Shown: positions 3,185 through 18,870 of the stretch, one piece after another
Layout: each line of letters opens with the position of its first letter
How positions within the stretch are numbered: the stretch's first letter is position 1
The notes under the pieces: model-generated
The model's input: only the letters and a program-made list of their open reading frames with translations
Told to the model about the DNA's origin: nothing
The model's database searches: none
DNA from: Bacteroidales bacterium
GTDB lineage: Bacteria > Bacteroidota > Bacteroidia > Bacteroidales > UBA932
Assembly: GCA_017482565.1 (NCBI GenBank)
Contig: JAFUMO010000019.1
Coordinates: forward strand, 1 to 40,586
Reading direction: 5' to 3'
DNA: 40,586 nt
Position numbers and translations under genes: made by a program

Positions 3185-3991
3185 ATGAAAAAACTGTTTG
3201 AAACAGTAAAATATATTGCATTTGATGCCGATGATACCCTCTGGGTAAATGAGCCTTATTTCCGTAAGGCAGAAGAGGAGTATTGTGCGGTGCTGGAGCG
3301 TTTTGCCGGAAGGGAAGAGATAATTGACACCCTGTACGGGATTGAGATGAAGAACCTGGCCCCATACGGCTACGGAGCCAAGGCATTCACCCTCTCCCTG
3401 ATGGAAACTGCCATAATTTTCAGTAACAGGAGGGCTTCCAATGAGACTTCCCCTTCCTGCCTGCATTCGGAGCAGCATGCTCCATACGGCAGCAAGGTTC
3501 CCGGTACGGAGGCGGTTGCTCCCCTCACCCCATCTGAAATGCAGCGGATAATTGAGATTGGAACCTCCCTGATAAATGTCCCTATAGAAATCCTTCCGGG
3601 GGTGGAAGAGGTTTTGAAAGAGTTGTCGGGAAGCGGGAAATATACCCTTATTGTGGCTACAAAAGGGGATCTGCTGGACCAGCAGAGGAAACTGGACCGC
3701 TCCGGCCTGGGAAAATACTTCCACCATATTGAGGTGATGAGCAACAAGGATGAGGCTGCCTTCAGCAGGCTCCTTGGTCACCTGGGCTGCCGCAATGATG
3801 AATTCCTCATGATAGGGAACTCAATGAAATCAGACATCCTACCCGTCCTGAACATCGGGGGCAAGGCAATCTACATCCCGTTCCACTCCACCTGGGAACA
3901 CGAAAAGGTTGAAGGGAAAGTTGTCCACCCTAACCTGTATGAATGCAAATCATGTATAGAGCTTAGAACTTCAGCTCAATCCCAAAGTTGA
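3185..3991 (+). CDS. HAD superfamily hydrolase, phosphatase type
   Basis: The 268-residue protein has the HAD motifs in order: motif I DADDTLW with nucleophile Asp14 and acid/base Asp16, motif II around IVATKG (Thr), a motif III lysine in the QQRKL/SNKDE region, and motif IV IGNSMKSD with paired acidic and Asn residues. These proteins hydrolyse small phosphorylated metabolites; the substrate is not predictable. The cap region (about 78-115) contains a roughly 35-residue Ser/Pro/Ala-rich segment that related enzymes seem to lack. The last 29 bp overlap the 3' end of the convergent DUF5686 gene. The start follows the candidate structured RNA by 65 bp. The class is firm, the role is not. Confidence 0.9.
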   Translation: MKKLFETVKYIAFDADDTLWVNEPYFRKAEEEYCAVLERFAGREEIIDTLYGIEMKNLAPYGYGAKAFTLSLMETAIIFSNRRASNETSPSCLHSEQHAPYGSKVPGTEAVAPLTPSEMQRIIEIGTSLINVPIEILPGVEEVLKELSGSGKYTLIVATKGDLLDQQRKLDRSGLGKYFHHIEVMSNKDEAAFSRLLGHLGCRNDEFLMIGNSMKSDILPVLNIGGKAIYIPFHSTWEHEKVEGKVVHPNLYECKSCIELRTSAQSQS

Positions 3992-6488
3992 TGACCCACT
4001 TGGTGGTCTCTTCCCCAAGGTAGTTGTGCTTGTGGTTGAGGCGCCAGTAGCTGTCAACCCTGAATACCCTGAAGATGTTGGTTATTCCCACTCCGGCCTC
4101 AAAGTAAGGTTTGTGCACACCGCTCATCCCGGCAGGGAAGAGGAGGTAAGGCACGGGTGCCCCGCCTGTGTCACCGGTGTGTGCGGAGATGTATTCCGCA
4201 CTTCCGTTGTTCTTGTCCTGGAGGGTTCCTACCACACCCCTGAATGATACAACCTCCCTCCATTTCAATTTTTTCAGCAGGGGAATCTTTCCCAGGAAGA
4301 ATCCTTTGAAGTTGTGCTCGTAGAACCACTGTACCCAGGTGTCCGAGGCGAATTCATAGAAGTCCATGCAGGCAAATGCCCCGGGGGAGTTGAAGTAAGT
4401 GCCGTTACCCTCGTGAAGCTTCAGGAGGGGATATGGCACCTTGCCCCAAATCTTGCCTGCGCGCACCCTGAAATAGGAGGTTCCCAGAGGAGGGAGGGCA
4501 AGGTCGTAGTTCACCCCTATCTCTCCCCTGTAATATTCATAATCGCTTCCCAGAACCCCTTTGAACCCTGCCTTGAAGTCCATTATGATTATAGGGTAGT
4601 CGCTTCCCAGATAGTATTTGTCAAAGTCATACCTGTTCACCATCTCATTCCAGCTCAGGCGGGCCCCAATCCCTATGGTGGCTGTGCGGATGGCCCCAAC
4701 TGCACAGCTGTCGGGAGTAAACATCTGTACATATTCCCCTTGGGCTATGCGGTTGTATTCTGTTCCAAAGGTTGTGGTGACCCCGTCCCTCCACTCATGC
4801 TCATACGAGACTCCTCCCCGGTTTACCATTCCAAGGCGCTGGCTGTCCCCCTTGGAGAGGATTGAGCCCAGGATGTTCCCTTCAGTGAAGGCATCCTCCC
4901 CGGCCCCCAGCTGCAGGGCATCCCTACGGTATGTGGCGGTAATCTTGCGGGTAGGCTGCTTGCCCAACATATATTCCACTGTGCCGCCCCCCTTGAAGGC
5001 TTCATCCCTGGTGCCGTAGGCAGCATATCCGGTAAGGCGCACCTTCTTGCTGAACTCGGAGGTGGTCCTGGCCCCAAACTGGAACCTTGCCCCTTCCAGA
5101 TTATTGAAGCTGAAGAGCTTGTAGTATGGCCCTATCTCAATTTTCCCAAGTTCATAATAGCCGTCCACAAATGCGGAAACTATATTGAAGAGGGTGTTGT
5201 ACAGCGGCACATTTTGGATGGAATCCACCATGTTGTAGATGTTCTGCTCCTTCCGGGTGAGGGCGTAAGGGCGTTCCTTTTCCCAGTAGGCGGGGTCGTT
5301 CTGCAGCACATCCTCATCAATCACCACATTGGTGTTGTATTTGAGGATTTCAGGCGGGGTAGGCTCCCCAATCACAACATCCGAGTAGTTCACCTCCCTG
5401 TGCCCCAGGAATGAGACAATCTTGGAGGAATCGTTCATGGTAACCGAGAAATCCACATAGAGGCGGTCCCTTTTCTTGAACCAGGTGGAATCATCCAGCA
5501 TGGTGTTCTCCACATCAATGGCCATATCCCTAACCCAGTTCACGTTAAGCCCCTTCACCATCTTCAAGTGGGCATCCCTCAGGGCCATGGTGGTGGAGTC
5601 AATTGAGAACTCCCCGTCAAGCACCGGTGCAGATTTCATCTTGGGATGGAACCTCAGCTTGTAGGTCTTCCTCCCATCCATCTTCAGGCTGTCCACAAGG
5701 TAATAGTCATAATACATGAAGCCGTGCTCATTGAGCGGTGAGGCAAACTTTATGTAGAAGATGTCAATGAAATTGTCATAGAGGTTTATGTTGGCATGCA
5801 GATGCCCGGTAAACTGCGCCAGAGAGTAATCTTCCTTTATTCCCGATATCCTGCTGGCATCAATCACCTCCCTGGAGAGGGGCGGCTCCTTCTGCATGTA
5901 GTACCTGGCATTGGACTCGGTAATCATTACAGGAAGATATGGTATTCCCGATATTGCAGAAGTGTCCATATAGTCCTCCACAAACCCGAAGTTCTTCTTC
6001 AGCATCTTTATCTTCAGCAGAGGGTCCACATTGGCTATGTCCAGCTCCATCTTGCTGTACACCTTGCACCTGTAGCTCTCCTTTGCCTCCGGGTCATTGT
6101 AGGGCTTCCTCTCATTCACCCTCTTCATGAAGGCCCTTATTTTCTTGTCATCCGCCTTTACGGTAATCCCCTGCAGCATTATGGAGAGAGGCTTCAGCTT
6201 GAAGTCCAGCTGCGTGAAGCTGCCCGGGGCCACTTTCCCCTCCTGAGGCTCATATCCCATCATTTCAGCCTTTATTGTGGCAGGGACGCTCTGGCGTGTC
6301 TCCAGGGTGTAGAACCCGTCAAAATCGGTTGTAACACCAATTGTGGTGCCGGGGAAATATATGTTTGCAAACGGCACAGGCTCCCCTGTGGTGGCATCCA
6401 CAACGGAACCCTTTACCTTTGTGGTCTGGGCAAAGGCGGAGCTGCAGGCAGCCAGCAAGAGCAATATGTAAAAAAAATACTTCTGCAT
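3963..6488 (-). CDS. DUF5686 / carboxypeptidase-regulatory-like outer-membrane protein
   Basis: About 841 residues from Met 6488 (the frame continues to 6530, but the hydrophobic signal starts at this Met). The N-terminus is a signal sequence that could be cut after AFA or lipidated at LLAAC. Residues ~25-110 form a carboxypeptidase-D-regulatory-like beta domain (VKGSVVDATTGEPVPFANI, then DFDGFYTL), the usual front of Bacteroidota outer-membrane proteins. The rest matches DUF5686: a soluble middle region and an aromatic-rich beta-barrel ending in INFGIELKF, a typical barrel C-terminus. The barrel function is unknown. It is the last gene of the acyl/polyene operon, 62 bp after the thioesterase, and could serve as the outer-membrane acceptor or porin for that product; this is inference. 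Confidence 0.85.
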   Translation of the reverse strand: MQKYFFYILLLLAACSSAFAQTTKVKGSVVDATTGEPVPFANIYFPGTTIGVTTDFDGFYTLETRQSVPATIKAEMMGYEPQEGKVAPGSFTQLDFKLKPLSIMLQGITVKADDKKIRAFMKRVNERKPYNDPEAKESYRCKVYSKMELDIANVDPLLKIKMLKKNFGFVEDYMDTSAISGIPYLPVMITESNARYYMQKEPPLSREVIDASRISGIKEDYSLAQFTGHLHANINLYDNFIDIFYIKFASPLNEHGFMYYDYYLVDSLKMDGRKTYKLRFHPKMKSAPVLDGEFSIDSTTMALRDAHLKMVKGLNVNWVRDMAIDVENTMLDDSTWFKKRDRLYVDFSVTMNDSSKIVSFLGHREVNYSDVVIGEPTPPEILKYNTNVVIDEDVLQNDPAYWEKERPYALTRKEQNIYNMVDSIQNVPLYNTLFNIVSAFVDGYYELGKIEIGPYYKLFSFNNLEGARFQFGARTTSEFSKKVRLTGYAAYGTRDEAFKGGGTVEYMLGKQPTRKITATYRRDALQLGAGEDAFTEGNILGSILSKGDSQRLGMVNRGGVSYEHEWRDGVTTTFGTEYNRIAQGEYVQMFTPDSCAVGAIRTATIGIGARLSWNEMVNRYDFDKYYLGSDYPIIIMDFKAGFKGVLGSDYEYYRGEIGVNYDLALPPLGTSYFRVRAGKIWGKVPYPLLKLHEGNGTYFNSPGAFACMDFYEFASDTWVQWFYEHNFKGFFLGKIPLLKKLKWREVVSFRGVVGTLQDKNNGSAEYISAHTGDTGGAPVPYLLFPAGMSGVHKPYFEAGVGITNIFRVFRVDSYWRLNHKHNYLGEETTKWVINFGIELKF

Positions 6489-6550
6489 CCCAATCTGAAA
6501 CGAGTTGCAAAAGTATCTTATTTTATCCAAATGCGGATGGTCTTAAATGA

Positions 6551-7006
6551 CTATTTTATATTCCACTTTTCCTTCCACTTCACAAAGAACTCAGGGACAT
6601 TTATTTCCAACTGGTTATCCTCAACACGGGTAAACATCTGGAGGCTCCTCCCCATTGCCGTCACAACCATATCCTCTTCCCTGTAGATAACATATTCCAT
6701 CAGGATCTTGGCCCCCTTGGTATTCACAAAACGGGTCTCCACAATGGCTGTATCCCCGTGTTTGAGCGGCATTATATAGTCCAGTTCCAGCTTTACGATT
6801 GGGATATAGTACCCCTCATCCGTAATGGTGGTGTAGCTGAGCCCCCCGAACTCCCGTCCGAAGGCTTCACGCCCATCTTCAAAGTAGCGGACATACTCAC
6901 CGTGCCACACTACCCTCATTGCATCCACCTCGCTGAAGCGGACCCTTATCTTCATCCTGTTTACAAGGGAAGGTTCCCCCAATTCCAGTCTCTGGACTCT
7001 TGCCAT
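6551..7006 (-). CDS. Hot-dog acyl thioesterase (4HBT/YbgC-like)
   Basis: A 151-residue single hot-dog domain. The signature DAMRVVWHGEYVRYFEDG matches the D-x6-H-xx-Y-xxx-F-E pattern of 4-hydroxybenzoyl-CoA/YbgC thioesterases, where the Asp activates water to cleave an acyl thioester. An alternative start at Met18 (6955) would still keep the whole domain. It lies 47 bp after the LolA-like gene and upstream of the DUF5686 gene in the same orientation. Thioesterases of this class occur in aryl-polyene clusters, where they release or edit ACP-bound chains. The likely role here is release or proofreading of the operon's acyl product. Family certain; substrate inferred. Confidence 0.88.
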   Translation of the reverse strand: MARVQRLELGEPSLVNRMKIRVRFSEVDAMRVVWHGEYVRYFEDGREAFGREFGGLSYTTITDEGYYIPIVKLELDYIMPLKHGDTAIVETRFVNTKGAKILMEYVIYREEDMVVTAMGRSLQMFTRVEDNQLEINVPEFFVKWKEKWNIK

Positions 7007-7053
7007 AATTCTCAGTTTTTAACGGAAACAATTCCAAGGGGCGGAAAGTTCAA

Positions 7054-7650
7054 TCATTTGAACTCCTTTACCGGTGTGTCATAAACGGTGTAGTTGCCGT
7101 TAGGCTCCACCATCTTCATCACGCACAGGGAGAAATCCTTCTTGCTGTAGCTGAGTACAAGCTCAACATACTGGCTCTTTGCCCCTTTGCCTTTGGCTAG
7201 GGTGAAGGTATAGTATTTTGTGGTCTCCTCAAATTTTATTGTGGCATTGTTCTCTGCAGCAACTGCTGCAACATCCCCGCCCACGCTGTAAAGGAGGGTG
7301 TTCTTAAGTACAGCCATGCGGCCGTCACCCTTTGCATTGGAGCTCCTCTTCTGCTTCCCGCTCACCATTGTGAAGGAATCCCCGTTGATGTCCAGCAGGT
7401 CCCCAGCAGGGGTGGTATACTCCATCTTCAATTTGTCCGGGCGCACATAAGTGAGGTTCCCCTCTGAAACCAGCTCCTTCTCCATCATTGCCATGTGGGC
7501 AGTCTTGGTGAACTTGCAGGTTATTGTGCCGTATTTTGCATTCTCCGAGGCAACCTTTGCCATTGCGGCGTCACACTCGGGGGTGTTCTGTGCATTTGCA
7601 GCAAATACAGCTGCAAAAAGCACTATCATACATGTTATTAATCTTTTCAT
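7054..7650 (-). CDS. LolA-like outer-membrane lipoprotein carrier protein
   Basis: The 198-residue product starts with a classical signal peptide ending FAANAQ. The mature part resembles LolA-like proteins: an amphipathic start, GTITCKFTKTAHM, then SEGNLTYVRPDKLKMEY and DSFTMVSGKQKRSS, the beta-strand pattern of the half-barrel that shields an acyl group in the periplasm. It is shorter and more divergent than housekeeping LolA, as in aryl-polyene and flexirubin clusters, where a dedicated copy accompanies an MMPL exporter. It sits 32 bp after the FabG-type gene. The proposed job is to take the exported lipid-like product across the periplasm. That partner assignment is inference from gene order. 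Confidence 0.82.
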   Translation of the reverse strand: MKRLITCMIVLFAAVFAANAQNTPECDAAMAKVASENAKYGTITCKFTKTAHMAMMEKELVSEGNLTYVRPDKLKMEYTTPAGDLLDINGDSFTMVSGKQKRSSNAKGDGRMAVLKNTLLYSVGGDVAAVAAENNATIKFEETTKYYTFTLAKGKGAKSQYVELVLSYSKKDFSLCVMKMVEPNGNYTVYDTPVKEFK

Positions 7651-7682
7651 CTGAAATCTGTTACTTTATTGCACACATCATG

Positions 7683-8411
7683 TTATGAATACAATCCTCC
7701 GTTGATTGAAATCACCTCACCGGTGATATAAGAGGCATCTTTTGAGCAGAGGAAACCTACAAGTGCGGCAACCTCCTCAGGGTTGCCGAAGCGGCCTGCA
7801 GGAATCTGAGCCACAAGCTCCTCCTCATTCAGCCCCTCAACCATATCTGTCTTTATGAAGCCCGGAGCAATTGCATTAACTGTAACGCCCCTCTTTCCAA
7901 CCTCCTGTGCAAGTGCCTTTGTAGCAGCAATGATGCCACCCTTGGCAGCAGAGTAGTTGGTCTGCCCCGGCAATCCCTTTAATCCCGAGAGTGAAGCCAT
8001 ATTGATCACCCTGCCGAACTTCTTCCTCAACATTGGCTGGATCAGCGGCTGGGTAACGTTGTAGAATGCGTTGAGTCCTATACCCATCACCTTGTACCAG
8101 TCCTCTGCCGGCATCAGCGGAAGGATATTGTCTTTCCTTATTCCGGCATTGTTCACAACAACCTCAATATACTCACCCTTGTGGGCAGCCTGCCATCCTG
8201 TGATTGCAGCTGCAGACTCCTCAAGGTTTGAAACGTCAAACTTCAGGAGCTCGCCGGTGCTGCCGGCCTCCTCAATGAGCTTCAGTGTCTCCTGGGCCTG
8301 GGCCTCATTTGAGACATAGTTTACAATTACATGGTATCCCATTGTGGCCAGCTTTACACTTACTGCCCTTCCTATTCCGCGGCTTCCGCCTGTTACAAGT
8401 GCATATTTCAT
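7683..8411 (-). CDS. 3-oxoacyl-ACP reductase, FabG-type short-chain dehydrogenase
   Basis: A 242-residue classical SDR. The NAD(P) motif GGSRGIG is at 8-14, NNAG at 87-90, and the catalytic tetrad is Asn114, Ser140, Tyr153 and Lys157 (YSAAK). The C-terminus has the FabG-like APGFIKTDM and GEVISINGG stretches. It reduces a 3-ketoacyl-ACP to the 3-hydroxy form. Its position between the oxidoreductase (13 bp after that gene's stop) and the LolA-like gene indicates a pathway-specific reductase paired with the ketosynthase and the two dehydratases, rather than the housekeeping FabG, though it could serve both. The usual family length is 240-250. Confidence 0.93.
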   Translation of the reverse strand: MKYALVTGGSRGIGRAVSVKLATMGYHVIVNYVSNEAQAQETLKLIEEAGSTGELLKFDVSNLEESAAAITGWQAAHKGEYIEVVVNNAGIRKDNILPLMPAEDWYKVMGIGLNAFYNVTQPLIQPMLRKKFGRVINMASLSGLKGLPGQTNYSAAKGGIIAATKALAQEVGKRGVTVNAIAPGFIKTDMVEGLNEEELVAQIPAGRFGNPEEVAALVGFLCSKDASYITGEVISINGGLYS

Positions 8412-8424
8412 ATCTGTATCAATT

Positions 8425-9999
8425 TTAAAATTCCAAATCTCTTGTTGCAGCCTCCATCCCTATTATCTGTGCGCAGGTAAAGAATGAGGTCATGCTCACA
8501 CCCAGCACACCGTGCAGGTTCAGTGACTGTCCTGTGAGGAAAAGGTTCTCCACAGGTGTCTTTGGGGTGAGGAGGGTAAGCATCACATTGTTGCAGTCCT
8601 TCCTTATTCCGTAGGCCGAGCCCTGTGCTGTGGCTGTGTAGTCCCTGTAGGTGAGCGGTGTGCTGGTATATGCCCTTTCAACGGCACTCTCCAGCCCCGG
8701 AATCACCCTTCCGGCCAGTCCCAGGCACTCCTTCAGCTTCCTCTCCTTAAGCCCGGCATACTCCTGGGGTCTCTGCCCCACGCGGGAATTCTCAAAAGCG
8801 GCAACCTCCTCCCAATCCATTGGGGCCAGAAGGTCAAGCGCCAGGGCACAGTCCCTCCCCTGCAGGGGGGTGCCAATACCGCATCCGGCAATACCTGTGC
8901 CAAACTTTTCCACAGACCCGCTCCCTGCGCCCTTACGGCTCCTGTTGTAATAGCTTACCAGCAGCTTACCTTTTCCTGCTCCGTAGCCGCTCCAGAGGCT
9001 CTCCCCGTCATCCAGGTTGTAGACATACTGGTTGCGGTTCAGGTAAGGGACCATTCCCGGCTTGAGGGCCAGGTTTGCGGTAAACATGCCAAAGGTGTTC
9101 TCAAGCCTGTTAATCCTGTTGCGGTAAACCTTGCGCAGCCCTGCACTATCACCTACAAGGTTTATGGTTGTGGCCGGGTGCATGTCTGATATTATATATT
9201 TTGCCCCTAAGAACTCCTCCCCGCAGAATACCCCGCTTGGGAGAATCTCAGTAACCTCTTTTCCTGTAAGTACGGTGCCGCCCATCTTCCTGATGCTTTC
9301 CGCAAGGGAATCCGCTATCAGGCTTCCCCCTCCGCACAGCCTCCAGGCACTTTCAATGAAGGAGTTGTTTATCTGGGCGAATGTATACAGCGGCAGGTTG
9401 GGCCCAAGCTCCATCTTCAGCGATGTGCCCGCCAGTACCTCCCTCAGCAGCGGATCTGTTATGGTTTCACAAAGGAACTCATACGCGCTGCGGGCAAAAA
9501 GGGAGCCGGTGAGTACATCTTCCGCGGCTTTTGGGGAGAGGCTCATGGGAAGGCGTTCCCCAACCTCCTTCAGGATGGAGACGTACTTCTTCAGGTTCCC
9601 CCTCTGTGCAGGGAAATATTCGCACATTTTCTCCACAAAGGAATCATGCCCGTTGGCAAACATATAGCTGCGGCCGTTTATGTTCACCTCATCAAATGCC
9701 CCTCCATCCATCCTGGCCCACGGAAGCTCCAGCAGACCAAAATAATTGAAGATGGCATGAAGGGGCTGCCCTGCGTCAAGCCCCCCTACATAATGCATCC
9801 CCGCATCAAACTCCTGTATACCTTCTGCCCCGCGTCTGCGGTAGCTCTGCAGGCAGCCACCCAATACGGGGTTCTTCTCCAGAACACATACATTCAGACC
9901 GTTCTTGGCCAGGATGTATCCGCATTGAAGCCCCCCAAGGCCTCCGCCGGCAATTACGGCGTCATAATGTGCAATAGGCTGGTTTCCAGGTGTCATCAT
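8425..9999 (-). CDS. FAD-dependent oxidoreductase, CrtI / retinol-saturase / carotenoid-isomerase type
   Basis: About 524 residues from the ATGATG at 9999; this start overlaps the exporter stop, suggesting translational coupling. The N-terminal Rossmann motif AGGGLGGLQ with a downstream LEKNPVLGG binds FAD. The C-terminal block (STPLTYRDYT, LFLTGQSLN, GVLGVSMTS) is the phytoene-desaturase/retinol-saturase signature. These enzymes desaturate, saturate or isomerise polyene chains. A Gly-rich insertion lies near residues 345-375. Its presence in an ACP-dependent pathway suggests redox modification of conjugated double bonds before or after export. An amine-oxidase-like role on another substrate cannot be excluded. 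The fold assignment is strong; the reaction is inferred. Confidence 0.85.
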   Translation of the reverse strand: MMTPGNQPIAHYDAVIAGGGLGGLQCGYILAKNGLNVCVLEKNPVLGGCLQSYRRRGAEGIQEFDAGMHYVGGLDAGQPLHAIFNYFGLLELPWARMDGGAFDEVNINGRSYMFANGHDSFVEKMCEYFPAQRGNLKKYVSILKEVGERLPMSLSPKAAEDVLTGSLFARSAYEFLCETITDPLLREVLAGTSLKMELGPNLPLYTFAQINNSFIESAWRLCGGGSLIADSLAESIRKMGGTVLTGKEVTEILPSGVFCGEEFLGAKYIISDMHPATTINLVGDSAGLRKVYRNRINRLENTFGMFTANLALKPGMVPYLNRNQYVYNLDDGESLWSGYGAGKGKLLVSYYNRSRKGAGSGSVEKFGTGIAGCGIGTPLQGRDCALALDLLAPMDWEEVAAFENSRVGQRPQEYAGLKERKLKECLGLAGRVIPGLESAVERAYTSTPLTYRDYTATAQGSAYGIRKDCNNVMLTLLTPKTPVENLFLTGQSLNLHGVLGVSMTSFFTCAQIIGMEAATRDLEF

Positions 10000-12482
10000 T
10001 TGACCTTTTTTTCTTTCCACCTCTTGTAGATGTTGAACAGGAACGGCTCCAGGGTATAGGTGATGGCAATGGTTGATGCCATTCCTATGAGGGTGGAGAG
10101 CCCTATTGAACTTATGGCAGGGTGGGTGGCAAACATCAGCGATGCAATGCTCAGGATAAGCACCACGGCAGAGAAGAAGATTGCTGTCTTGTGGTATGTG
10201 AGCAGCGTAGGGTTGTCCTTGCCGCGGCCAAGGAGGCCGTCCATTACAAATATGCTGTAGTCCACACCTATTCCGAATATGAAGGTGGATATTACAATGT
10301 TTATCAGGTTGAACTGCATCCCGAACGCCCCCATCACGCCCAGTACAATGTACCAGCTCATGCCCATAGGGAGAAATGCAATCAGTGCCACCGGAATGTT
10401 GCGGAACGAGAGGAGCAGCACCACAAGTACAAAGAGTGATGAAATGTTCAATACTGTGTTGAAGTCATCATTCAGCAGCTCCACCATGTTCTGGGTGTAG
10501 AAGAAAGGATCTGCCACAATGATTGCGTTTGCAGGTATCCCCTCTGTCCCCTTCACAATGGCGTTGCTCACCTGGAGCATATCCTCAGGGAGGGCCTGGG
10601 CCGAGGTGAACACAAGGTATGTACTGTCTGTATATTCCACAAGGTTTGCCAGAAGACCGTCGGGAATAATGCCGGCATCCACAAGGGAGTTTGCCTCAAA
10701 TTCCCCCTCCACAAGGTCCATGAATGGCCCGAACATCCCCTCCTTGAACCCCTGGGCCTTGCCTGAGGCCAGGAGAAGCTTCCTCAACTCCTTCACCTTA
10801 CCTTCATTCCAGAACTCCTGCCACATCCCAATCCTCTCATTGGTTGTCTCAGTAGGGAGGAGGAGCATGGCCGAGTTTGTATATTTCTTTATAAGCCCTT
10901 CCTGTGCCAGTTCACGGCACTTCTTCTCAAGGGCAATGTTGTATGTAAGGGCGCTGTCGAGATCCCTGGAGAGTACAGCATAATATTTGCTCTCCATACC
11001 CGGCATGGTCTTTTCTGCCAGTATCTGCCCGGAGCGCACCACGTCAGGCTCATTATAGCCTATATTCTTCAGGTTTGAATCAAATCCCACATTCCTCCCG
11101 GTAAAGAGAGAGATTACAAAAACCACAACCACCAGCCCCACAAGCCATCTCTTCTTGTCGTAAGGGTAGTTGTTCAGCTTCTCTATAAAACCGAATGCCT
11201 TCCAGTTCACCCTGTTGCTCTCCGGCCTGAAGAAGTGCGGCAGGAACACCAGGCAGAAGAAAGTTGTACCTACCATTCCAAGGGAGGCAAAGAGACCGAA
11301 ATCTGAAAGGAGCTCTGATTCTGTGAATAGCAGCCCCATGAATGCCCCAATGGTGGTGACGCTTCCCATAAGGACAGGCTTCACCTGCTCACGGATAACC
11401 CTTTCCGGATCATTCACATATTTGTAGTGGGTAAGCACATGCAGGCAGTAGCTCAGGGCAACTCCCAGCACAATGGCTCCTATCCCCAAGGCCATCAGGG
11501 ACATGCTGCCCTTTATCAGGTATATTCCCGACAGTGCAAAGAATGCCCCGTACACCACAGGAACCAGCAGGAGCACAAGGGTGCTCTTGTTCCTGAAGCA
11601 GTACCAGATGATAAGGCATATCAGCACCAGCGAAAAGCTTAGGGTGATGGCCAGGTCGCTCTTTATCTGCCTTGAGTTGAATACGCTCTGTACGGGTGCT
11701 CCGTGAAAGAGCACTTCAATATCTGGGTTGGCGGCCTCAAATTTCTCTATTGTCCCCTCCAGCATCTCCACAAGGTATGTTCCCTGCCGGGAGTCAAATG
11801 CCTTGAAGTTGGGGGAGAGGAATGCAAGGGCTACAGTGCTGTCGGGAGTATAGAAATGCCCCTCCACAACCTTGTAGGTGCCACCCATCATGGAGGCCAT
11901 ATCCCCGTTCTGCTCCATGAAGATCTTGCGGATGGCGAGGGGGTCGTTCCTCACTATGTCATACCAGAACATTCCCTGGGCTGAGGAGAGGAGTTCCACA
12001 TTCTCCGCCATTGCTGCATCTGCATATTCCCTGTTGAGGCAGGAATCCATTGCCGGATAGAACCTCTCATCCAGGAATTGCGGCACATTCTCAAAGAGGT
12101 AGCCGAGGGCATCCTGCAGGATATACTCATCCAGCATCCAGGTGAGATCGGCAATGTAGTTTGTGGCAGTGTCCTGCAGCAGGAGGGAATCGGCAAAGGC
12201 ATCTGCGGCCTCAGCCAGCGCATAATGGCTCTCCTCATTGTACAAGGTGGAGTCCTTCAGGAGGAACTCAAGGAAAATCTTGTCCTTCACCTTGAGGTTG
12301 TTGAACGCAAATCCGGCCGATCTGCTCTCATCTGTAGAGGGGAGGAGCTTGGAAATGTCCTCCTCGTATGTAACCTTGCTCCCCAAGAAAACGAACAGCA
12401 GGGAACTGGCTGTGAGCAAAGTGTAAAATAGAGCCTTCCTGCGGCCCAATATCCTGTATAGTCTTATTGCAAGCTCTGTCAT
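9996..12482 (-). CDS. MMPL/RND-type lipid exporter
   Basis: About 828 residues from the ATG at 12482; a GTG at 12494 in frame is possible. The topology is the duplicated RND/MMPL plan: one N-terminal helix, a large periplasmic loop (about 40-265), a bundle of helices (about 270-430), a second helix and loop (about 445-660), then a second bundle (about 665-820). The second bundle contains FIFGIGVDYSIFVMDG, the sterol-sensing-like MMPL motif with an intramembrane Asp; the first half has GIGAIVLGVALSYCLH. Such proteins are proton-driven exporters of lipids and polyketides. It lies 15 bp after the second dehydratase. In aryl-polyene clusters a homologue is thought to move the finished lipid out of the inner membrane. 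Confidence 0.9.
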   Translation of the reverse strand: MTELAIRLYRILGRRKALFYTLLTASSLLFVFLGSKVTYEEDISKLLPSTDESRSAGFAFNNLKVKDKIFLEFLLKDSTLYNEESHYALAEAADAFADSLLLQDTATNYIADLTWMLDEYILQDALGYLFENVPQFLDERFYPAMDSCLNREYADAAMAENVELLSSAQGMFWYDIVRNDPLAIRKIFMEQNGDMASMMGGTYKVVEGHFYTPDSTVALAFLSPNFKAFDSRQGTYLVEMLEGTIEKFEAANPDIEVLFHGAPVQSVFNSRQIKSDLAITLSFSLVLICLIIWYCFRNKSTLVLLLVPVVYGAFFALSGIYLIKGSMSLMALGIGAIVLGVALSYCLHVLTHYKYVNDPERVIREQVKPVLMGSVTTIGAFMGLLFTESELLSDFGLFASLGMVGTTFFCLVFLPHFFRPESNRVNWKAFGFIEKLNNYPYDKKRWLVGLVVVVFVISLFTGRNVGFDSNLKNIGYNEPDVVRSGQILAEKTMPGMESKYYAVLSRDLDSALTYNIALEKKCRELAQEGLIKKYTNSAMLLLPTETTNERIGMWQEFWNEGKVKELRKLLLASGKAQGFKEGMFGPFMDLVEGEFEANSLVDAGIIPDGLLANLVEYTDSTYLVFTSAQALPEDMLQVSNAIVKGTEGIPANAIIVADPFFYTQNMVELLNDDFNTVLNISSLFVLVVLLLSFRNIPVALIAFLPMGMSWYIVLGVMGAFGMQFNLINIVISTFIFGIGVDYSIFVMDGLLGRGKDNPTLLTYHKTAIFFSAVVLILSIASLMFATHPAISSIGLSTLIGMASTIAITYTLEPFLFNIYKRWKEKKVK

Positions 12483-12497
12483 GATTCTTTCCACCCG

Positions 12498-12902
12498 CTA
12501 TCTTACGGGCGACAATTCTGCGGATATTTCAAAAAATTTCATCTCCGGCTTCCCAAGGGCACAGCCGGATGCCTTCATCTTGTAGATTATTCCTGTACCC
12601 TCCTTCTCTCCCTGCTCAAGATGGATTTCAACCATCAGTTCAGGGTTCTTCTGGGGTGCCATAACTTCAAGCAGCCTGTATTGCTTTATGTAGCTGATGA
12701 GGAACTTCTCATGCGCCATTATCTGGGCACACTCCTTCACCATTTGCAATGAGCATACTCCGGGGCATACGGGCTCTCCCGGGAAGTGCCCCTCGTATAC
12801 CGGATGGTCTGCCAGCAGGTTTATCTTGAACCTGCCGTGGCGGGTATCCGAGTTTGGGTAGGATATCTTCCTTATTGTAAAATAACTGTCCTGCAGCTTC
12901 AT
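12498..12902 (-). CDS. FabZ-like 3-hydroxyacyl-ACP dehydratase, ApeI-like, catalytic Glu replaced
   Basis: A 134-residue hot-dog protein carrying HPVYEGHFPGEPVCPGV (33-49). The catalytic His39 and the HFPG loop are intact, but the Glu that FabZ has four residues after PGV is Gln53 here (PGVCSLQMVKE). The start codon overlaps the stop of the upstream dehydratase gene as TAATG, so the two are probably translated together and may form a heterodimer. The expected reaction is dehydration of 3-hydroxyacyl-ACP to the trans-2-enoyl form; without an enoyl reductase in the operon the double bonds would be kept, giving a polyene. The fold is clear; activity of this subunit alone is uncertain. Confidence 0.85.
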   Translation of the reverse strand: MKLQDSYFTIRKISYPNSDTRHGRFKINLLADHPVYEGHFPGEPVCPGVCSLQMVKECAQIMAHEKFLISYIKQYRLLEVMAPQKNPELMVEIHLEQGEKEGTGIIYKMKASGCALGKPEMKFFEISAELSPVR

Positions 12903-13318
12903 TACTCTTCTCTGATAAAAATTTTCATCTGGCAGCTGGCGGCAACCTGGCCGTCAACGTGTGTGGTGGCATTGATGAGCGTGATGCCCATAGCCTCCGA
13001 GACAACCTTTATTGTTGTCTCCATTGTCTCCTCAATCTTGGGGAGGAAATTGAGTGTGAACTTCTTCACCTCTCCAATAAACCCTACAGGGACCGGCTTC
13101 CCTGCTTCCCTGCAGTTGTAGCCTGCCATGGCAGATGCACTCTGTGCCATGTGCTCTATGATTCCCGCCTCCGCTATATGGCCGTGGTGGCAGAACATGT
13201 TGTTGCCGCTTATAAACAAACATGTAGTGGCATCCTGAGCGGATGCACTACATAATTTGTCAACCATTACTATAGGATGGCGCTGGGGAATCAGGTCACT
13301 AATTCTCCATTCTTTCAT
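12902..13318 (-). CDS. Second hot-dog 3-hydroxyacyl-ACP dehydratase, ApeP-like
   Basis: 138 residues from the ATG at 13318; the frame reaches 13342 only through a TTG. The motif MFCHHGHIAEAGIIEHMAQS (41-60) corresponds to the FabZ/FabA active site, with a His (44 or 45) and Glu55 both present, and the start RHPIVMVDKL is typical of FabZ-like N-termini. It overlaps the ACP gene by 20 bp upstream and the next dehydratase by the TAATG junction. Since its partner lacks the Glu, this subunit probably supplies the acid in a mixed active site or carries full activity. In aryl-polyene systems the paired dehydratases ApeI and ApeP form a heterocomplex; the same is predicted here. Confidence 0.83.
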   Translation of the reverse strand: MKEWRISDLIPQRHPIVMVDKLCSASAQDATTCLFISGNNMFCHHGHIAEAGIIEHMAQSASAMAGYNCREAGKPVPVGFIGEVKKFTLNFLPKIEETMETTIKVVSEAMGITLINATTHVDGQVAASCQMKIFIREE

Positions 13319-13544
13319 AAACAAAATCGTATAGCTGGCCAAAGTTCTTGATAGAAGCTACCTCTGTACCTTTGATCTTTACACCAAAAGTCTCCTCAAT
13401 GAGGGCAACCATGTCCACAAGGCTGAGACTGTCCAGATCCAGGGTCTTCTTGATGTCAGCCTCAGGGGTAATAACTTCTGTCTCTACCTCAAATTCCTCT
13501 GCAAGCACCTCAATGGTCTTTGCAATCATTTCGTCTTTAGTCAT
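13299..13544 (-). CDS. Acyl carrier protein
   Basis: An 81-residue acidic helical protein with the phosphopantetheine attachment motif DLDSLSLVD, Ser39 being the modified residue. Length and charge fit a type II ACP. It is located 24 bp after the ketosynthase and overlaps the following dehydratase by 20 bp, so it is the pathway-dedicated carrier. No phosphopantetheinyl transferase is in the window, so a chromosomal AcpS/Sfp-type enzyme must activate it. The sequence is rich in Glu and has a short helix I, as for ACPs of fatty-acid-like polyene pathways. Only one ACP is present, whereas many aryl-polyene clusters have two. Confidence 0.95.
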   Translation of the reverse strand: MTKDEMIAKTIEVLAEEFEVETEVITPEADIKKTLDLDSLSLVDMVALIEETFGVKIKGTEVASIKNFGQLYDFVYERMEN

Positions 13545-13568
13545 GTCTTTAAAGTTTAATCAGGTTTA

Positions 13569-14789
13569 TTATAGATTTCTAATTATCAATGTTGAGTTGG
13601 TGCCTCCAAAACCGAATGAGTTTGAAAGGAAAGTGTCAAATTTCTTCTCAATCCTCTTGCCCGGGATGTTCAGCTTTGCAGAATCCTCATCAGGATTCTC
13701 AAAGTTGATGTTTGCACCAATGAAATCATTCTTCATCATAAGTGTAGAGTAGATGATTTCAGATGCACCTGCCATCCACATCTCGTGGCCTGTCTGCGAT
13801 TTGGTTGAGGTAACCTCAGGCATGTTGTCACCAAATACCTGGTAGATTGCCTTGGCCTCATTTGCATCACCCTTAGGGGTTGAGGTTGCGTGTGCGTTTA
13901 TGTAGCCTATCTCCCTCTTGTCTATGCCGGCAAGCCTCAATGCCATCTCAAGCGAGCGGGCAGGGCCGTCAACGTTAGGGACAGAAATGTGGTCTCCGTT
14001 TGATGAGAAGCCGTAGCTGAGCACCTCTGCAATGATAGGGGCACCTCTTCTTACTGCACTCTCATAGCTTTCAATGATTACAGTGGCTGCACCGCCGCCA
14101 GGTACAAGGCCGTCGCGGTCCCTGTCAAACGGGCGTGAAGCCTTCTCCGGGGCATCCTCCCTTATTGAGAATGCGCTTATGCCGTCAAAGCTTCCTATTG
14201 AGAACGGGTTCACCTCCTGTGCACCGCCGCAGATTACCATCTCCTGAAGCCCGTTCCTGATAAGCATGGCTCCAAGGCCTATGGCGTGTGAACCGCTGGC
14301 ACATGCGCCTGAAACTGTAAGGTTCATACCCTTGAGCTTGAAGATGCATGCAAGGTTCATGGTAACTGTTGAGTTCATGCTCTGGAAGATTGCACCTGAA
14401 CCTACAAGGGTGGTGTCCTTCTTCTCCCTCATAGTATCCACGCTCTTTACAACAGGATCAGCGCTGCTGTCATTTCCATAAAGGATGCCTACCTCATGGC
14501 TGTTGAGGTAATCCTGATCTATTCCTGCATGCCTCAATGCATCAGCGGTTGCGCAATATGCATATTTGGCCTGCTCAGGCATATATACCCTCTGGCTTCT
14601 GCTGAGCTCCTTCTTAAGGTCAGGAATCTCAAGATGTGCTGTAAGGGCAGACCTGAAACCCATCTCCTTGCGGAGGGGGTCAAAAATGATTCCACTCTTT
14701 CCGTGATACAGGGAATCCTTCACTTCCTCCAAAGTCTTTCCGAGGCAAGAATAAATTCCCATTCCGGTAATTACAACTCTTCTATCCAT
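13569..14789 (-). CDS. Beta-ketoacyl-ACP synthase (KAS II-like), pathway ketosynthase
   Basis: 406 residues from the ATG at 14789; the 14 residues before it in the open frame are not family-like. The catalytic triad is complete: Cys163 in SGACASGSH, His300 in NAHATSTPKGD and His335 in KSQTGHEMW, so it is an active condensing enzyme rather than a chain-length factor (which lacks the Cys). The C-terminal SNSFGFGGTNST is the usual glycine-rich loop. It catalyses decarboxylative condensation of malonyl-ACP with the growing chain. It is 17 bp downstream of the acyltransferase gene and followed by the ACP gene. No partner KS/CLF is nearby, so chain length control is not of the classical KS-CLF type. 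Confidence 0.93.
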   Translation of the reverse strand: MDRRVVITGMGIYSCLGKTLEEVKDSLYHGKSGIIFDPLRKEMGFRSALTAHLEIPDLKKELSRSQRVYMPEQAKYAYCATADALRHAGIDQDYLNSHEVGILYGNDSSADPVVKSVDTMREKKDTTLVGSGAIFQSMNSTVTMNLACIFKLKGMNLTVSGACASGSHAIGLGAMLIRNGLQEMVICGGAQEVNPFSIGSFDGISAFSIREDAPEKASRPFDRDRDGLVPGGGAATVIIESYESAVRRGAPIIAEVLSYGFSSNGDHISVPNVDGPARSLEMALRLAGIDKREIGYINAHATSTPKGDANEAKAIYQVFGDNMPEVTSTKSQTGHEMWMAGASEIIYSTLMMKNDFIGANINFENPDEDSAKLNIPGKRIEKKFDTFLSNSFGFGGTNSTLIIRNL

Positions 14790-14806
14790 TTGTATCAATA
14801 TCTTTT

Positions 14807-16159
14807 TTATAAATTTCTCAATTTGTTCCACAATTCATTGTGTCTGCGCTGCAGCTCCTGTCCCTTCCCGGTATCCTTATGCCTGAGCCACCTGAGGTCC
14901 CTCACCGCATTGCCCACACATTTTGTATAGTTCCATGCAAAGATACAAAGAAGTGGAATGAGTACCACATGTGCAAGCCCCATCCAAAAAGAATCTGTTC
15001 CAAAATATGTAACAAGGAACACTATAAGGGAGAACAGGGGTATCAGCAGCAGTGCGTTGAATGCATAGATGAATGTCCCCTGGAACATTATGTCCGTGCT
15101 TACTTTCTTGTGCACGAACTTTGGAATTGCGTACAGCAGCAGTGATGGCCACAATGAGAAGATGTAGAGCTCCACGAACATGAATGCCAGCACCAGTTTC
15201 AGGGCAGCCATTATTCCCTGCGGCTTTTTCTCCAGGGACTCACTTCTTGTCCCCAGCTCCTTCACACCTTTCTGTTCCTCCCTTGCAAGGGTATAAATCT
15301 CCTCTGCACTGGCAGGGTCACTCTCCTTCAGTTCCTCCAGCTTGGCGCATAGTTCCTTGTCCGAGACAAGCCTGCTTGGAAGATAATCTGCATCAATCCC
15401 TTTCTGTGTGGCATACTCCTTGCCGTAGGTTGTGCGGATATAGTCTATTGCATCATAGTTCTCCAGGTCTTCAATGTTGAGCATCAGGCTGTTTATCTGC
15501 TCCCTCACAAGGGTGTTCACCTGCCTCTTTGCGGTGCGCGGCTTGGTCTTGTACAGCTCATAGAACGGCTTCAGGGAGATAGGGGTGCCGAATTTTACCA
15601 TGAACTGCCCCTGTATCTCAAAATAGTTGCGGTAGTGGTTGCATGAGGGGAGTATGAAGATCTCTGTATTGAAGTTGTCCATTTCGGCAGCTTCAAATGC
15701 CAGCTTCAGATATCCCATTGAGAATGTTCCCAACCACCTCTTGTCCTGGTGCCCTGCCTCCGGATACATTACAATTGTACGGCCGTTTACGAGTTCGCGT
15801 TCTGTAATCTTGAAGGTCTCGTCATTCTTGCCAAGAGCTCCTTCGCCCTCGTAGTCAAGACGGAATGCCGGCAGCAGTCCTATTGCCCTGAGAAACTTGT
15901 TGGCAATGGGATGCAGTGCAAACACATCTGCGCGGGTGATGAAATTGGGTTTGCGGTCCCTGAATGTGAACAGCACGCCAAGAGGGTCATTCAGGCAGTT
16001 CTGGTGGTTTGAAACCACAAGGGTAGGGATACCGTCTGCCGGAATATTCTCCGGATTTATGCTGTATGTCTTCTTATAATATACTTTATCATGTATAAGA
16101 CGCAGGTATACCTTGAACATCCTGTAGATTATACCTGGCTTGCCTGAATTTTTCTCCAT
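14807..16159 (-). CDS. PlsC-type acyltransferase with C-terminal membrane segments; first gene of the operon
   Basis: About 450 residues. The start at 16159 is preceded by GGAGG five bases upstream; the ATG at 16180 in frame is the alternative. Residues ~45-210 form a lysophospholipid-acyltransferase-like domain: the His-Asp box reads SNHQNCLNDP, with five residues between His and Asp rather than the usual four, and the glycerophosphate-binding region reads YPEAGHQDKR instead of the common PEGTRS. About 100 residues of charged, helical linker follow, then two or three membrane helices near the C-terminus (about 315-415). It probably acylates a lipid or hydroxy acceptor with the pathway product at the inner membrane. 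The same type opens many aryl-polyene and flexirubin clusters. Acceptor unknown. Confidence 0.85.
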   Translation of the reverse strand: MEKNSGKPGIIYRMFKVYLRLIHDKVYYKKTYSINPENIPADGIPTLVVSNHQNCLNDPLGVLFTFRDRKPNFITRADVFALHPIANKFLRAIGLLPAFRLDYEGEGALGKNDETFKITERELVNGRTIVMYPEAGHQDKRWLGTFSMGYLKLAFEAAEMDNFNTEIFILPSCNHYRNYFEIQGQFMVKFGTPISLKPFYELYKTKPRTAKRQVNTLVREQINSLMLNIEDLENYDAIDYIRTTYGKEYATQKGIDADYLPSRLVSDKELCAKLEELKESDPASAEEIYTLAREEQKGVKELGTRSESLEKKPQGIMAALKLVLAFMFVELYIFSLWPSLLLYAIPKFVHKKVSTDIMFQGTFIYAFNALLLIPLFSLIVFLVTYFGTDSFWMGLAHVVLIPLLCIFAWNYTKCVGNAVRDLRWLRHKDTGKGQELQRRHNELWNKLRNL

Positions 16160-16197
16160 CTGCTCCTCCGTTTGTTTCATTCGCAAATTAGCGCATG

Positions 16198-16229
16198 CAA
16201 AAATATAAAATAATGGAGATTTGACCAAA
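16198..16229 (-). promoter_or_regulatory. Promoter of the acyl/polyene operon
   Basis: On the minus strand TTTG (16229-16226), 20 nt, then TATTTTTG (16205-16198), the Bacteroidota sigma-ABfr pattern TTTG-N19..21-TAnnTTTG. Transcription would start near 16194, giving a leader of about 35 nt to the ATG at 16159. No strong terminator separates the eleven genes downstream. Confidence 0.6.
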
Positions 16230-16333: not shown

Positions 16334-16337
16334 TTTG

Positions 16338-16409
16338 TACGGGATAGGAGAATCGAACTCCTATTTGAAGAATGAGAATCTTCCGTCCTAACCGTTAGAC
16401 GAATCCCGC
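16338..16409 (-). tRNA. tRNA-Glu (anticodon CTC)
   Basis: Reading the minus strand, a full cloverleaf can be drawn: acceptor GCGGGAT with ATCCCGT (first pair G-U), D arm GTC...GAC, anticodon stem GAAGA/TCTTC with loop TTCTCAT giving anticodon CTC, variable loop AAAT, and T arm AGGAG-TTCGATT-CTCCT. The discriminator is A, and CCA is not encoded, so it must be added. It decodes GAG. A promoter and a terminator flank it exactly. Confidence 0.95.
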
Positions 16410-16484: not shown

Positions 16485-18842
16485 TCATTCAATTTCTTCA
16501 GATTCAGTGAATGGTTTGTCTCCAATTTTCCTCAAAACAACCACCTCATCAAACAGAGAACACATCTCTTTCCAAAAATCCTTGAACAATGGATAATCTT
16601 TTACAGGGATGAAAATATCCTTGAGCATTATTGTAAGCCCGAACATTACAACATTTTTTTCTGAAGAGCACCTTATGGAAACTCTGCTTCCGTTTGTCCC
16701 CATAGTATATCCCCTGTTTTGAGGCAGATTGTCCACTTCATAGCCAGGGGGGATAATAATATTTGCGCTGTATTCAATGGTTTTGGGATATTTCAGCTCT
16801 ACAGGGTACTCTCTCTGCTCCTGTGGGAATTCATCCATATTGTGGTAAACCTCAACAAATGGGTTCACAAGAATCTTGTTGTCCACCAATACGGCAGAGC
16901 TGCGCCTGAATTCAAAATCCCTCTTGAATATATTGTTGGTTGTGTCTGCCTTGTATGTATAGCCGTTAATGAATTCTCCCTTTATCTTCTCCTTCAGCTT
17001 GTTGAAATACACTTCCTGTATAACGGCCTCCTTTACCTGTTCTGCCTGGTCATAGCAGCAGTGGTTGGTTGCAACAGTATATACTTTTCCCTCAACTACA
17101 CCTTTTTCGTCCACATTCAGCACAGCAGTATGGTGTTCCTTGTTCTCCACAATATTTGCCAAATCCACCCAAACAGGCCCTTTCTGGTATATGCGTCCTT
17201 TGTCTGTAAGGTGAAGATGGTTGAGTATGTTTACCCCTATATCCTTTATTGACGGATCAAAGTAAACATTCTCCCCGTTTTTGAGGGTTATTTGAACTAC
17301 TGAGGTATTCATTGTTCCTACAGTCGTTTCATTCTCAGTTAACTGCCCCCTGTCGCGGCTTTTCAGCAGGATAAGGTTTGTATGGAATCCTGTGTTCCTG
17401 AAAGCGGCCATCACCAGAGCGTTAATCTCCATGTCAGAACCCTTTTTGGTTTCAAAGGCCTCCTTTACCGGCCTTATTTTCTCAGCTTTTCCAAAAGACG
17501 TGCATTCAATGTCATTCTTTATCACGCTGCATATAGCTTCGGCCTTGTTGAAATCGGACATATTGGAATCCATTATATGCTTTACGCTATCTTTATACAA
17601 GTTTGGGGCAAACATGAATCTTCTTCCCAATTCTGCATCTTTATACAGGATATTGTCAACATGGTACCAATTGTAAGAGTATCTTCTCTCACCGGAGTTG
17701 GATTTGTTGCCTTTGAAATCCAGCTCTACAGCCATCCTGTATTTAGGGGCGTTTATGACAAAATTTTCCGGGCAATCTTCGGTTATGGCAGGGAGGTTTT
17801 CTGCAATGAAGACCCTGTTTACGAGCGGTTTCTCTTCGTATGGGTCCTGCCGCCACTGTTGGCTGGTTGGCTTTCTTTGAATAAGGTTGGGTTTGGAGAT
17901 TGAATATACCTGGTCAGAATACCCTAAACTCCTGTTCACTTTATACAGACGCCCTTCATTAAGAATGACTTCCGGTTTTTCGAGTCCTGTAACAACAGCC
18001 TCAAACATGAGTTCCTCAAAGTTTGTGAACTCCAAAACGCTCTTTACAACAGGAATATCTTCCTGGAAATACCATTTTGGGAACATGATATCATCCCCTG
18101 ATACCATACCATCCATAAAATCCACATCAATTGAAGTAAAGGATATCCCTGAGAAATCCCCAAATGAAAAATCCCACATGCTGTCCTCCCCGAATCCGGC
18201 CCCCTCTTGAACGTATTTGGTGGTACTATTATCATCCTCATTGATTCTGCCCCCACCTTCAAGGTCATGCCTGCTCTTGAAAAAGTAATCCATGTAGCTG
18301 GCCTTTATGTATTCGCTCTCCTCATAATACTGTGGCATGGTTCCTACAACGGTATATTTGTATTCAATTACGGTACCTGGCAGGGCGTCAGGTACTGTAA
18401 ATGTAACCTCCCGTTTCTTGAAATTGTACTTGGTCTCCCTTATTGAGTCTTTGTCCATCTTTCTTGATACAATTTCATTCCCTTCCAATCTGTAAACATA
18501 GGCCTCTATCCCATCAACCCTTTCAGTATATTTGCTCAATCTTTTGTATGGGACAGTTACTGTAGCATATTTCTTCCCTTCCGGCTTGAAGATTCTAATT
18601 CTTTTTGTGTAGGACTTCCTTACAGTGAATACAGAAGAGAGTTTGGCATCCATTGCAAATTCACCGCCACTGTACAGCACAATAGCTGCTGCAGAAGTGT
18701 CACGCTCATAAAACGGTATCTGCAGTTCCTCCATTGAAACCTCTCCAAATTTGTAATGTCCCCTCTCCTGGCATATGGCATTATTACAAATTGATGCAAA
18801 AAATATGGATCCTAGAACGGCATATAACAAGAAATGTTTCAT
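16485..18842 (-). CDS. DUF3857 protein with inactive transglutaminase-like domain
   Basis: 785 residues from the ATG at 18842 (two codons upstream is a TTG). A signal peptide ends near NNAICQ. Residues ~40-290 form the DUF3857 domain, a beta-rich region; ~400-540 contains a transglutaminase-like core with KKGSDMEINALVMAAFRNTG and later NGENVYFDPS. In active members the first block holds the catalytic Cys (GxC); here no Cys is present, so it should be a non-catalytic fold. The C-terminal ~200 residues are DUF3858-like beta domains. It is probably periplasmic. It follows two small lipoprotein genes in the same direction; a weak promoter precedes it. Function is unknown. Confidence 0.85.
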   Translation of the reverse strand: MKHFLLYAVLGSIFFASICNNAICQERGHYKFGEVSMEELQIPFYERDTSAAAIVLYSGGEFAMDAKLSSVFTVRKSYTKRIRIFKPEGKKYATVTVPYKRLSKYTERVDGIEAYVYRLEGNEIVSRKMDKDSIRETKYNFKKREVTFTVPDALPGTVIEYKYTVVGTMPQYYEESEYIKASYMDYFFKSRHDLEGGGRINEDDNSTTKYVQEGAGFGEDSMWDFSFGDFSGISFTSIDVDFMDGMVSGDDIMFPKWYFQEDIPVVKSVLEFTNFEELMFEAVVTGLEKPEVILNEGRLYKVNRSLGYSDQVYSISKPNLIQRKPTSQQWRQDPYEEKPLVNRVFIAENLPAITEDCPENFVINAPKYRMAVELDFKGNKSNSGERRYSYNWYHVDNILYKDAELGRRFMFAPNLYKDSVKHIMDSNMSDFNKAEAICSVIKNDIECTSFGKAEKIRPVKEAFETKKGSDMEINALVMAAFRNTGFHTNLILLKSRDRGQLTENETTVGTMNTSVVQITLKNGENVYFDPSIKDIGVNILNHLHLTDKGRIYQKGPVWVDLANIVENKEHHTAVLNVDEKGVVEGKVYTVATNHCCYDQAEQVKEAVIQEVYFNKLKEKIKGEFINGYTYKADTTNNIFKRDFEFRRSSAVLVDNKILVNPFVEVYHNMDEFPQEQREYPVELKYPKTIEYSANIIIPPGYEVDNLPQNRGYTMGTNGSRVSIRCSSEKNVVMFGLTIMLKDIFIPVKDYPLFKDFWKEMCSLFDEVVVLRKIGDKPFTESEEIE

Positions 18843-18870
18843 AATCAAGGAGCTTTAATGGTTTCATTTT

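Follow-up and report, generated by a model that had tools for sequence, protein, structure and literature searches.

The closest described relatives of the operon analysed here are the flexirubin cluster (flxA-flxY with darA/darB; Chitinophaga pinensis and Flavobacterium johnsoniae) and the aryl polyene (APE) cluster (E. coli CFT073, Xenorhabdus and Acinetobacter). PMC8358021 describes the ketosynthase (KS) ApeR as a FabB-like homodimer, whose products in vitro are mostly short polyenes with no more than four double bonds; long chains are made by ApeO-ApeC, the throughput of which is raised by ApeR. The dehydratases ApeI and ApeP are reported to form a heterodimer with one shared active site (PMC8041823), LolA2/LolB2 are encoded within flexirubin loci and could act in the transport of pigment (PMC11885536), and an arylpolyene-type biosynthetic gene cluster of Bacteroides xylanisolvens is described as similar to the C. 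pinensis flexirubin cluster (PMC12940132). Here we analyse a window of 40,586 nucleotides, the whole of contig JAFUMO010000019.1 from a Bacteroidales bacterium (assembly GCA_017482565.1; 2.10 Mb in 70 contigs, 89.45% complete), in which eleven contiguous open reading frames (ORFs) on the minus strand (3963-16228) form an operon related to these clusters. We favour, with a probability of roughly 55%, the reading that this compact operon is an offshoot of the flexirubin/aryl-polyene family without a chain-length factor (CLF), able to work alone, and that it makes a short polyenoyl lipid.

The ORF listing, combined with Pfam and NCBIfam scans, gave the transcription order PlsC-type acyltransferase (AT), KS, acyl carrier protein (ACP), two dehydratases (DH1 and DH2), MMPL exporter, CrtI-type flavin adenine dinucleotide (FAD) enzyme, FabG-type short-chain dehydrogenase/reductase (SDR), LolA, 4HBT thioesterase (TE), and a protein with CarboxypepD_reg and DUF5686 domains. 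Neighbouring ORFs are spaced by -44 to +47 bp. The sole promoter-like site, TTTG-N20-TATTTTTG (16229-16198, minus strand), was read from the letters against what we take to be the consensus. An earlier note on this DNA had described eleven minus-strand genes with these functions, almost no gaps and one promoter, all of which is borne out (the largest gap is 47 bp). It had also reported the lack of a KS-CLF pair, ammonia-lyase, AMP ligase, glycosyltransferase and halogenase, and the eleven proteins indeed gave no match to these families in the scans.

The same note had placed the operon outside the aryl-polyene/flexirubin systems, a view that did not survive comparison with relatives, where homologues of the window KS (13569-14831; likely start 14789, matching relatives) and FabG (7683-8411) adjoin the FlxA tyrosine ammonia-lyase (TAL). 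The FabG is a FlxB/ApeQ-type ketoreductase (KR): it passes the cut-off of the FlxB model NF053542 (393.5 bits, cut-off 340) and matches ApeQ at 47.7%; it also matches a Pfam family named enoyl-ACP reductase, the best curated model being FlxB, a ketoreductase. A complete cluster of the order, in locus L174, reads TAL-FabG-KS-ACP-LipA-type acyltransferase-methyltransferase-DH1-TE-KS-ACP, and continues ApeO KS-CLF-polysaccharide deacetylase-LolA-DH2-family 2 glycosyltransferase (GT2)/DUF2062-MMPL/acyltransferase fusion-CrtI (CLF is our label for the Ketoacyl-synt_2 protein after the ApeO KS). L170 and L172 have the same order save for small differences. Every gene or domain of the compact operon except DUF5686 has a counterpart in such clusters. 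CrtI homologues are a normal component of them, so the CrtI-like gene loses the standing of a special sign that it had been given.

With the flexirubin cluster the operon shares an SDR over the FlxB cut-off, a KS related to the one beside flxA-flxB in the complete clusters of the order (called FlxC-type by its position in TAL-FabG-KS clusters; C. pinensis sequences, including FlxC, lay outside the comparison), DH, ACP, TE, acyltransferase, exporter and, perhaps, a LolA2-like carrier. It differs in lacking TAL, acyl ligase, KS:CLF, polysaccharide deacetylase and glycosyltransferase, and in having DUF5686. The APE cluster has in common with it the ApeR-type KS, the ApeQ-type KR, the ApeI:ApeP-type split dehydratase pattern, a lysophospholipid acyltransferase (LPLAT), TE, LolA-like protein and MMPL; the operon, however, is without ApeO:ApeC, ApeH, ApeJ, ApeN and a methyltransferase, and has the CrtI-type enzyme. 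The arrangement is real and recurring, yet it is a variant of the flexirubin/aryl-polyene kind and not a new kind. Of the product proposed earlier, a polyene or unsaturated lipid of the outer membrane stands as the best guess, while the novelty of the system does not.

The KS has an intact active site, its catalytic Cys, both His and the Lys being invariant across 11 aligned rows. Compared with the APE cluster of E. coli CFT073, it matched ApeR best (34.9%, 226 bits) and ApeO at 110 bits; in the same comparison the TE matched ApeK and DH2 weakly ApeI. In a 35-row tree the window clade grouped with E. coli FabB (100/95) and ApeR (96/89), on long E. coli branches, and not with ApeO, CLF or FabF. 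In a 54-row tree, built from 22 of the 80 named loci described below (our choice), unnamed loci and E. coli, the compact KSs fell into a single clade (35 rows, 100/98) that is nested within a set made up of 13 TAL-linked KSs and two further ones; in the alignment, three columns (FabB 232, 293 and 367) separate the compact from the TAL-linked group. Because of the nesting, the compact operon looks derived from flexirubin genes by loss of TAL, KS:CLF and others. The KSs of L127, L128, L132, L134, L135 and L139, which lie beside complete-cluster genes, fell inside the compact clade (6/6), which suggests later re-joining. The CrtIs behave similarly: in a quick tree made from the window sequence and, out of 55 compact rows, the first 26, the compact CrtIs lay within one clade (29 rows; SH-like approximate likelihood ratio test 100) that also contains L127 and L134. 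Both the KS and the CrtI clades are related to TAL-linked clusters. The FabG tree, covering the window and 26 of 29 compact rows, was weak and mixed, with compact and complete-cluster rows intermingled. Bacteroides sp. 51 has a FabG that grouped with TAL-linked ones, so single genes may have been exchanged.

We assessed the spread of the two marker genes across 119 genomes sampled evenly from the order (CrtI at E <= 1e-20, KS at E <= 1e-100). Each was found in 30 genomes; they occurred together in 29, each alone in one, and neither in 88 (Fisher p 2e-25, uncorrected for relatedness). FlxA TAL passed the cut-off in 21 of the 31 genomes bearing KS or CrtI, and one more, G046, has a FlxA truncated by contig ends. 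Neither TAL over the cut-off nor GT2-DUF2062 was found in three of them: the window's own genome, G078 and G105.

Scanning genome contigs with the KS alignment gave at least 593 pattern matches, and 586 of the matches listed encode relatives; the best 80 were kept, and close relatives are therefore over-represented in the resulting set of named loci (KS identity 75-92%). Two of these come from named isolates, Bacteroides sp. 51 and Parabacteroides sp. PM6-13. The nearest named KS relative among the matches listed (L072, 92%), from a goat-cecum Bacteroidales metagenome-assembled genome, has the order AT-KS-ACP-DH1-DH2-MMPL-CrtI-FabG-LolA, TE and DUF5686 not being found there. Parts of this order, which is that of the window, reappear in other loci. 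The arrangement is therefore more than chance. Our rule classes 46 of the 80 loci as compact, 6 as neighbours of a complete-cluster set and 28 as partial; L142, scored compact, carries complete-cluster genes on the other strand. A second tally used 32 loci (46 were excluded for short flanks and two as lying beside a complete cluster; L134, with a CLF fragment, was retained), in which KS was detected in 32, ACP in 27, CrtI in 25, AT in 21, DH1 in 21, MMPL in 18, DH2 in 17, TE in 14, LolA in 13, FabG in 12 and DUF5686 in 4, with KS alone in 3. The fetched loci include duplicated or overlapping pairs (L053/L122, L061/L109, L064/L080, L056/L177 and L060/L173). L146, L147 and L177 carry closely similar compact-clade KSs in another gene setting, with ACP and CrtI undetected adjacent to them; in G055 an ACP-DH1-TE-DH2-CrtI part (L056) lies ~18 kb off on the same contig.

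A complete cluster next to the segment in relatives had been named earlier as a finding that would speak against the proposal, and we found this in part. A KS-CrtI-FabG block stands divergent from an ApeO KS and CLF cluster in 5 of the 80 loci (L127, L128, L132, L135 and L139; the CrtI match is short, 240-294 bases, in the last four), and in L134 the same-strand genes that precede it are a CLF fragment, GT2, MMPL-acyltransferase and an AMP ligase. In L118 and L134 the nearest gene detected upstream of the compact-type KS-CrtI pair codes for an AMP-binding protein (56-57% to a complete-cluster ligase).

By sequence pattern, the two dehydratases divide an active site between them. DH1 (12902-13342; likely start 13318), the ApeP-like half, matches NCBIfam FabZ models at 40 bits, with no match in Pfam and no BLAST match to ApeP; DH2 (12498-12902), the ApeI-like half, is FabA-like at 24.4 bits and matches ApeI at E 3.7e-4. 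As counted from BLAST-hit spans with duplicates included, DH1 has the FabZ catalytic Glu in 69/69 aligned rows and no conserved His, and DH2 has the His in 54/54 rows, with Gln (35), Glu (11) or another residue (8) at the Glu site. The pair, with Glu in one protein and His in the other, resembles the ApeI:ApeP heterodimer and may likewise act as one.

The CrtI/amino-oxidase-type FAD oxidoreductase (8425-10020) shares with the carotenoid desaturases CrtI/CrtD the fold (4rep, 4dgk) and the FAD-binding motif. It differs from them in sequence (~16% identity), in its place within an acyl-ACP operon, and in that its genome has no carotenoid precursor synthase (no match to the phytoene/squalene synthase family PF00494). 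The fold matches do not discriminate between desaturase, isomerase and reductase. In L061 (427-4425; same record as L109) MMPL and the CrtI-like enzyme are fused in a single 1332-aa ORF, and a related ORF of ~107-110 aa lies between MMPL and CrtI in L067 (6282-7233) and L053 (2405-3384).

From these parts we infer the following course. A homodimeric FlxC/ApeR-type KS would condense malonyl units on the operon ACP (13299-13544; PF00550, 43.3 bits), and the FlxB-type reductase with the split DH1:DH2 would leave one double bond per round. As there is neither an enoyl reductase nor a chain-length partner, the chain would stay short, with about 3-5 conjugated double bonds. The CrtI-type enzyme would then isomerise, reduce or further desaturate it. 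The membrane acyltransferase would transfer the chain to a glycerolipid, the TE assisting or proofreading, and the lipid would be carried across by MMPL and LolA; DUF5686 may act at the outer membrane and could replace a LolB-like step. The polyene module of alterochromide clusters belongs to another kind of product. Those clusters are described, in PMC8358021, as lacking KS:CLF, and the likeness, by description only, lies in a short polyene made by genes resembling those of fatty-acid synthesis (FAS) without that pair. Short polyenes are also what the KS-ACP-KR-DH:DH set would be expected to give, considering the in vitro products of ApeR described in the same source.

The PlsC/LPLAT-type acyltransferase (14807-16228; PF01553, 44.9 bits) belongs to a group in which 39 of the 48 hit spans scanned in relatives show the NHxN-D motif. 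The MMPL-type exporter (9996-12494; PF03176, 74.4 bits) is 32.8% identical to the MMPL part of the complete-cluster fusion protein. In the complete clusters at L060 (10130-13969) and L066 (5407-9012) MMPL is fused to a PlsC-type acyltransferase, followed in L060 by a methyltransferase domain. The LolA-like periplasmic carrier (7054-7650; PF03548, 33 bits) has LolA2_flexi as its best NCBIfam model, below cut-off (104 bits, cut-off 125), and the 4HBT thioesterase (6551-7006) matches PF13279 (54.7 bits) and TIGR00051 (74 bits, cut-off 68.7). The last protein (3963-6530; PF18939, 235.9 bits; PF13715, 65.9 bits) is presumably in the outer membrane; its structure model (pLDDT 36.7) was too poor for use. 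In L069, L093, L112 and L114, LolA is followed by DUF5686 as the next gene detected.

To see whether compact operons occur alone, we searched for an ApeO-type KS in 3 controls and 15 compact-bearing genomes, of which 13 were identified by tree, G143 by 78% KS identity and G137 solely by CrtI identity. None was found in four of the 15 (G000, G078, G105 and G137; best match 31% identity), the window's own genome being among these; G105 is 99% complete. In seven (G003, G018, G111, G121, G131, G143 and G158; low-identity rows of the last four assigned by position) there was an ApeO-type KS and no second FlxC-type KS was seen. The remaining four had both (G034 and G055 by identity, G125 and G144 by position). 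To judge from these genomes, the compact operon can stand by itself, although in most of the 15 it does not. The window's own genome has two KS genes, that of the operon and a FabF-like one. It has no FlxA over the cut-off of 700 and no GT2-DUF2062 at E <= 1e-30; its sole PF00221 protein, considered as a TAL, was rejected as HutH (298-308 bits with the FlxA model).

Several observations weigh against a stand-alone polyene operon. An ApeO-type KS elsewhere in 11 of the 15 genomes means that independence is not general, and its absence from the window's own genome comes from an assembly 89% complete, with no search for a lone CLF. The rooting of the KS tree depends on the long E. coli branches. 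FabG, DH1, DH2 and TE were undetected in four compact operons that read AT-KS-ACP-MMPL-CrtI-LolA-DUF5686 (L069, in which MMPL and CrtI are each split over two ORFs, L093, L112 and L114), so those genes are not always in cis, and the DH2 proteins that retain Glu (11/54) may be complete alone. The function borrowed for the compact KS is itself debated, for ApeR is described as required for initiation in Xenorhabdus in PMC8253772, whereas a priming role is denied in PMC8358021. Finally, the KS pocket residues examined fail to separate compact from TAL-linked KSs, and the sequences give no hint that the starter differs. The column of ApeR Tyr135, located by distance to the catalytic Cys, holds Ile in 35/35 compact-clade KSs and Ile or Val in 13/13 TAL-linked KSs, and the position of ApeQ Leu185 holds Phe in 27/28 compact, 7/7 other complete-cluster and 11/13 TAL-linked FabG rows. 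These aryl-contact residues are thus missing in the window proteins and in TAL-linked homologues alike, so that the starter is not readable from them, and we set them aside as a diagnosis.

The best-placed alternative, which we nonetheless consider doubtful, is that the operon is one module of a split flexirubin/aryl-polyene pathway, serving to initiate or boost it, with its KS and FabG feeding short aryl polyenes to an ApeO:CLF cluster elsewhere and its transport genes giving a second export route. The seven genomes with an ApeO-type KS and no second FlxC-type KS, the five divergent blocks and the reported effect of ApeR on ApeO-ApeC throughput (stated in PMC8358021) all agree with such a division of labour. 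The four genomes without an ApeO-type KS, one of them almost complete, argue against it, as does the operon's possession of its own ACP, DH, MMPL, LolA and AT, which complete clusters have too.

We think it unlikely that the product is an unsaturated or hydroxy acyl membrane lipid without a conjugated polyene, in which case the FabB-like KS would extend acyl-ACP of FAS, and primary FAS would supply the absent reduction and dehydration enzymes. The best NCBIfam model for the KS is FabB (372.5 bits, below the cut-off of 630), the operons without detected FabG and DH would fit, and E. coli lacking apeR is described as retaining the principal APE lipid and as showing late intermediates considered impaired in attachment (PMC8253772), so a KS of this type may have its use at the lipid anchor. 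The window operon, however, encodes a KR and a DH pair itself and lacks an enoyl reductase, and its nearest relatives are polyene clusters. A housekeeping FabB is disfavoured, given that the KS reached its threshold in just 30 of 119 genomes. Ordinary fatty-acid synthesis, the other outcome that the earlier note had held against its proposal, is disfavoured by the same accessory distribution and by the separate FabF-like KS of the genome.

It is more improbable still that an aryl polyene is made from an aryl acid, such as p-coumarate released from plants in the gut of herbivores, with the activating ligase encoded outside the operon. The pocket residues shared with TAL-linked KSs and the ruminant or horse samples in the titles of 36 of the 80 named loci would suit this, but the five AMP-binding proteins of the genome, all on other contigs, fit generic fatty-acid CoA ligase models below cut-off. 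A decaying flexirubin remnant, or a carotenoid role for the CrtI-like gene, is scarcely credible: many flexirubin genes are absent and the carotenoid-desaturase fold is there, but none of the eleven ORFs is interrupted, the arrangement is found again in loci with 75-92% KS identity, and PF00494 is absent from 26 of the 31 KS- or CrtI-bearing genomes, the window's own included, which disfavours a carotenoid pathway. The five that have it (G020, G046, G078, G093 and G102) were counted for CrtI by E-value only and may include true carotenoid CrtIs.

The compact operon, read as a source of short polyenoyl lipid, directs attention to a lipid of gut Bacteroidales that has yet to be characterised, and it suggests that a CrtI-type enzyme can have a role connected with polyenes apart from carotenoid metabolism. 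It also offers a natural case of an ApeR-type KS working in genomes without a detected ApeO-type KS, by which the debated role of this KS in aryl-polyene pathways becomes testable. Tentatively, and with less confidence than we place in the operon's origin and product, such operons might stand for a widespread, unrecognised lipid class: glycerolipids with short, non-aryl polyenoyl chains, built by a lone ApeR/FlxC-type KS and a split dehydratase, tuned in these anaerobes by a dedicated CrtI-type flavoenzyme (an isomerase or reductase and not an O2-dependent desaturase), with MMPL-LolA-DUF5686 bringing them to the outer membrane. We found no published description of such compact operons in titles or abstract openings, a search that left subscription papers mostly, and supplements wholly, outside.

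The listed TTG start of the acyltransferase (16228) falls within the promoter-like site, which makes ATG 16180 or 16159 the likelier start. Upstream lies a tRNA-Glu gene (16337-16409), after which comes a terminator-like hairpin. Upstream of the tRNA gene is also a 787-aa ORF (16485-18848, minus strand), which had no Pfam match at E <= 1e-10. A convergent HAD hydrolase gene (3185-3991) closes the downstream side of the operon.

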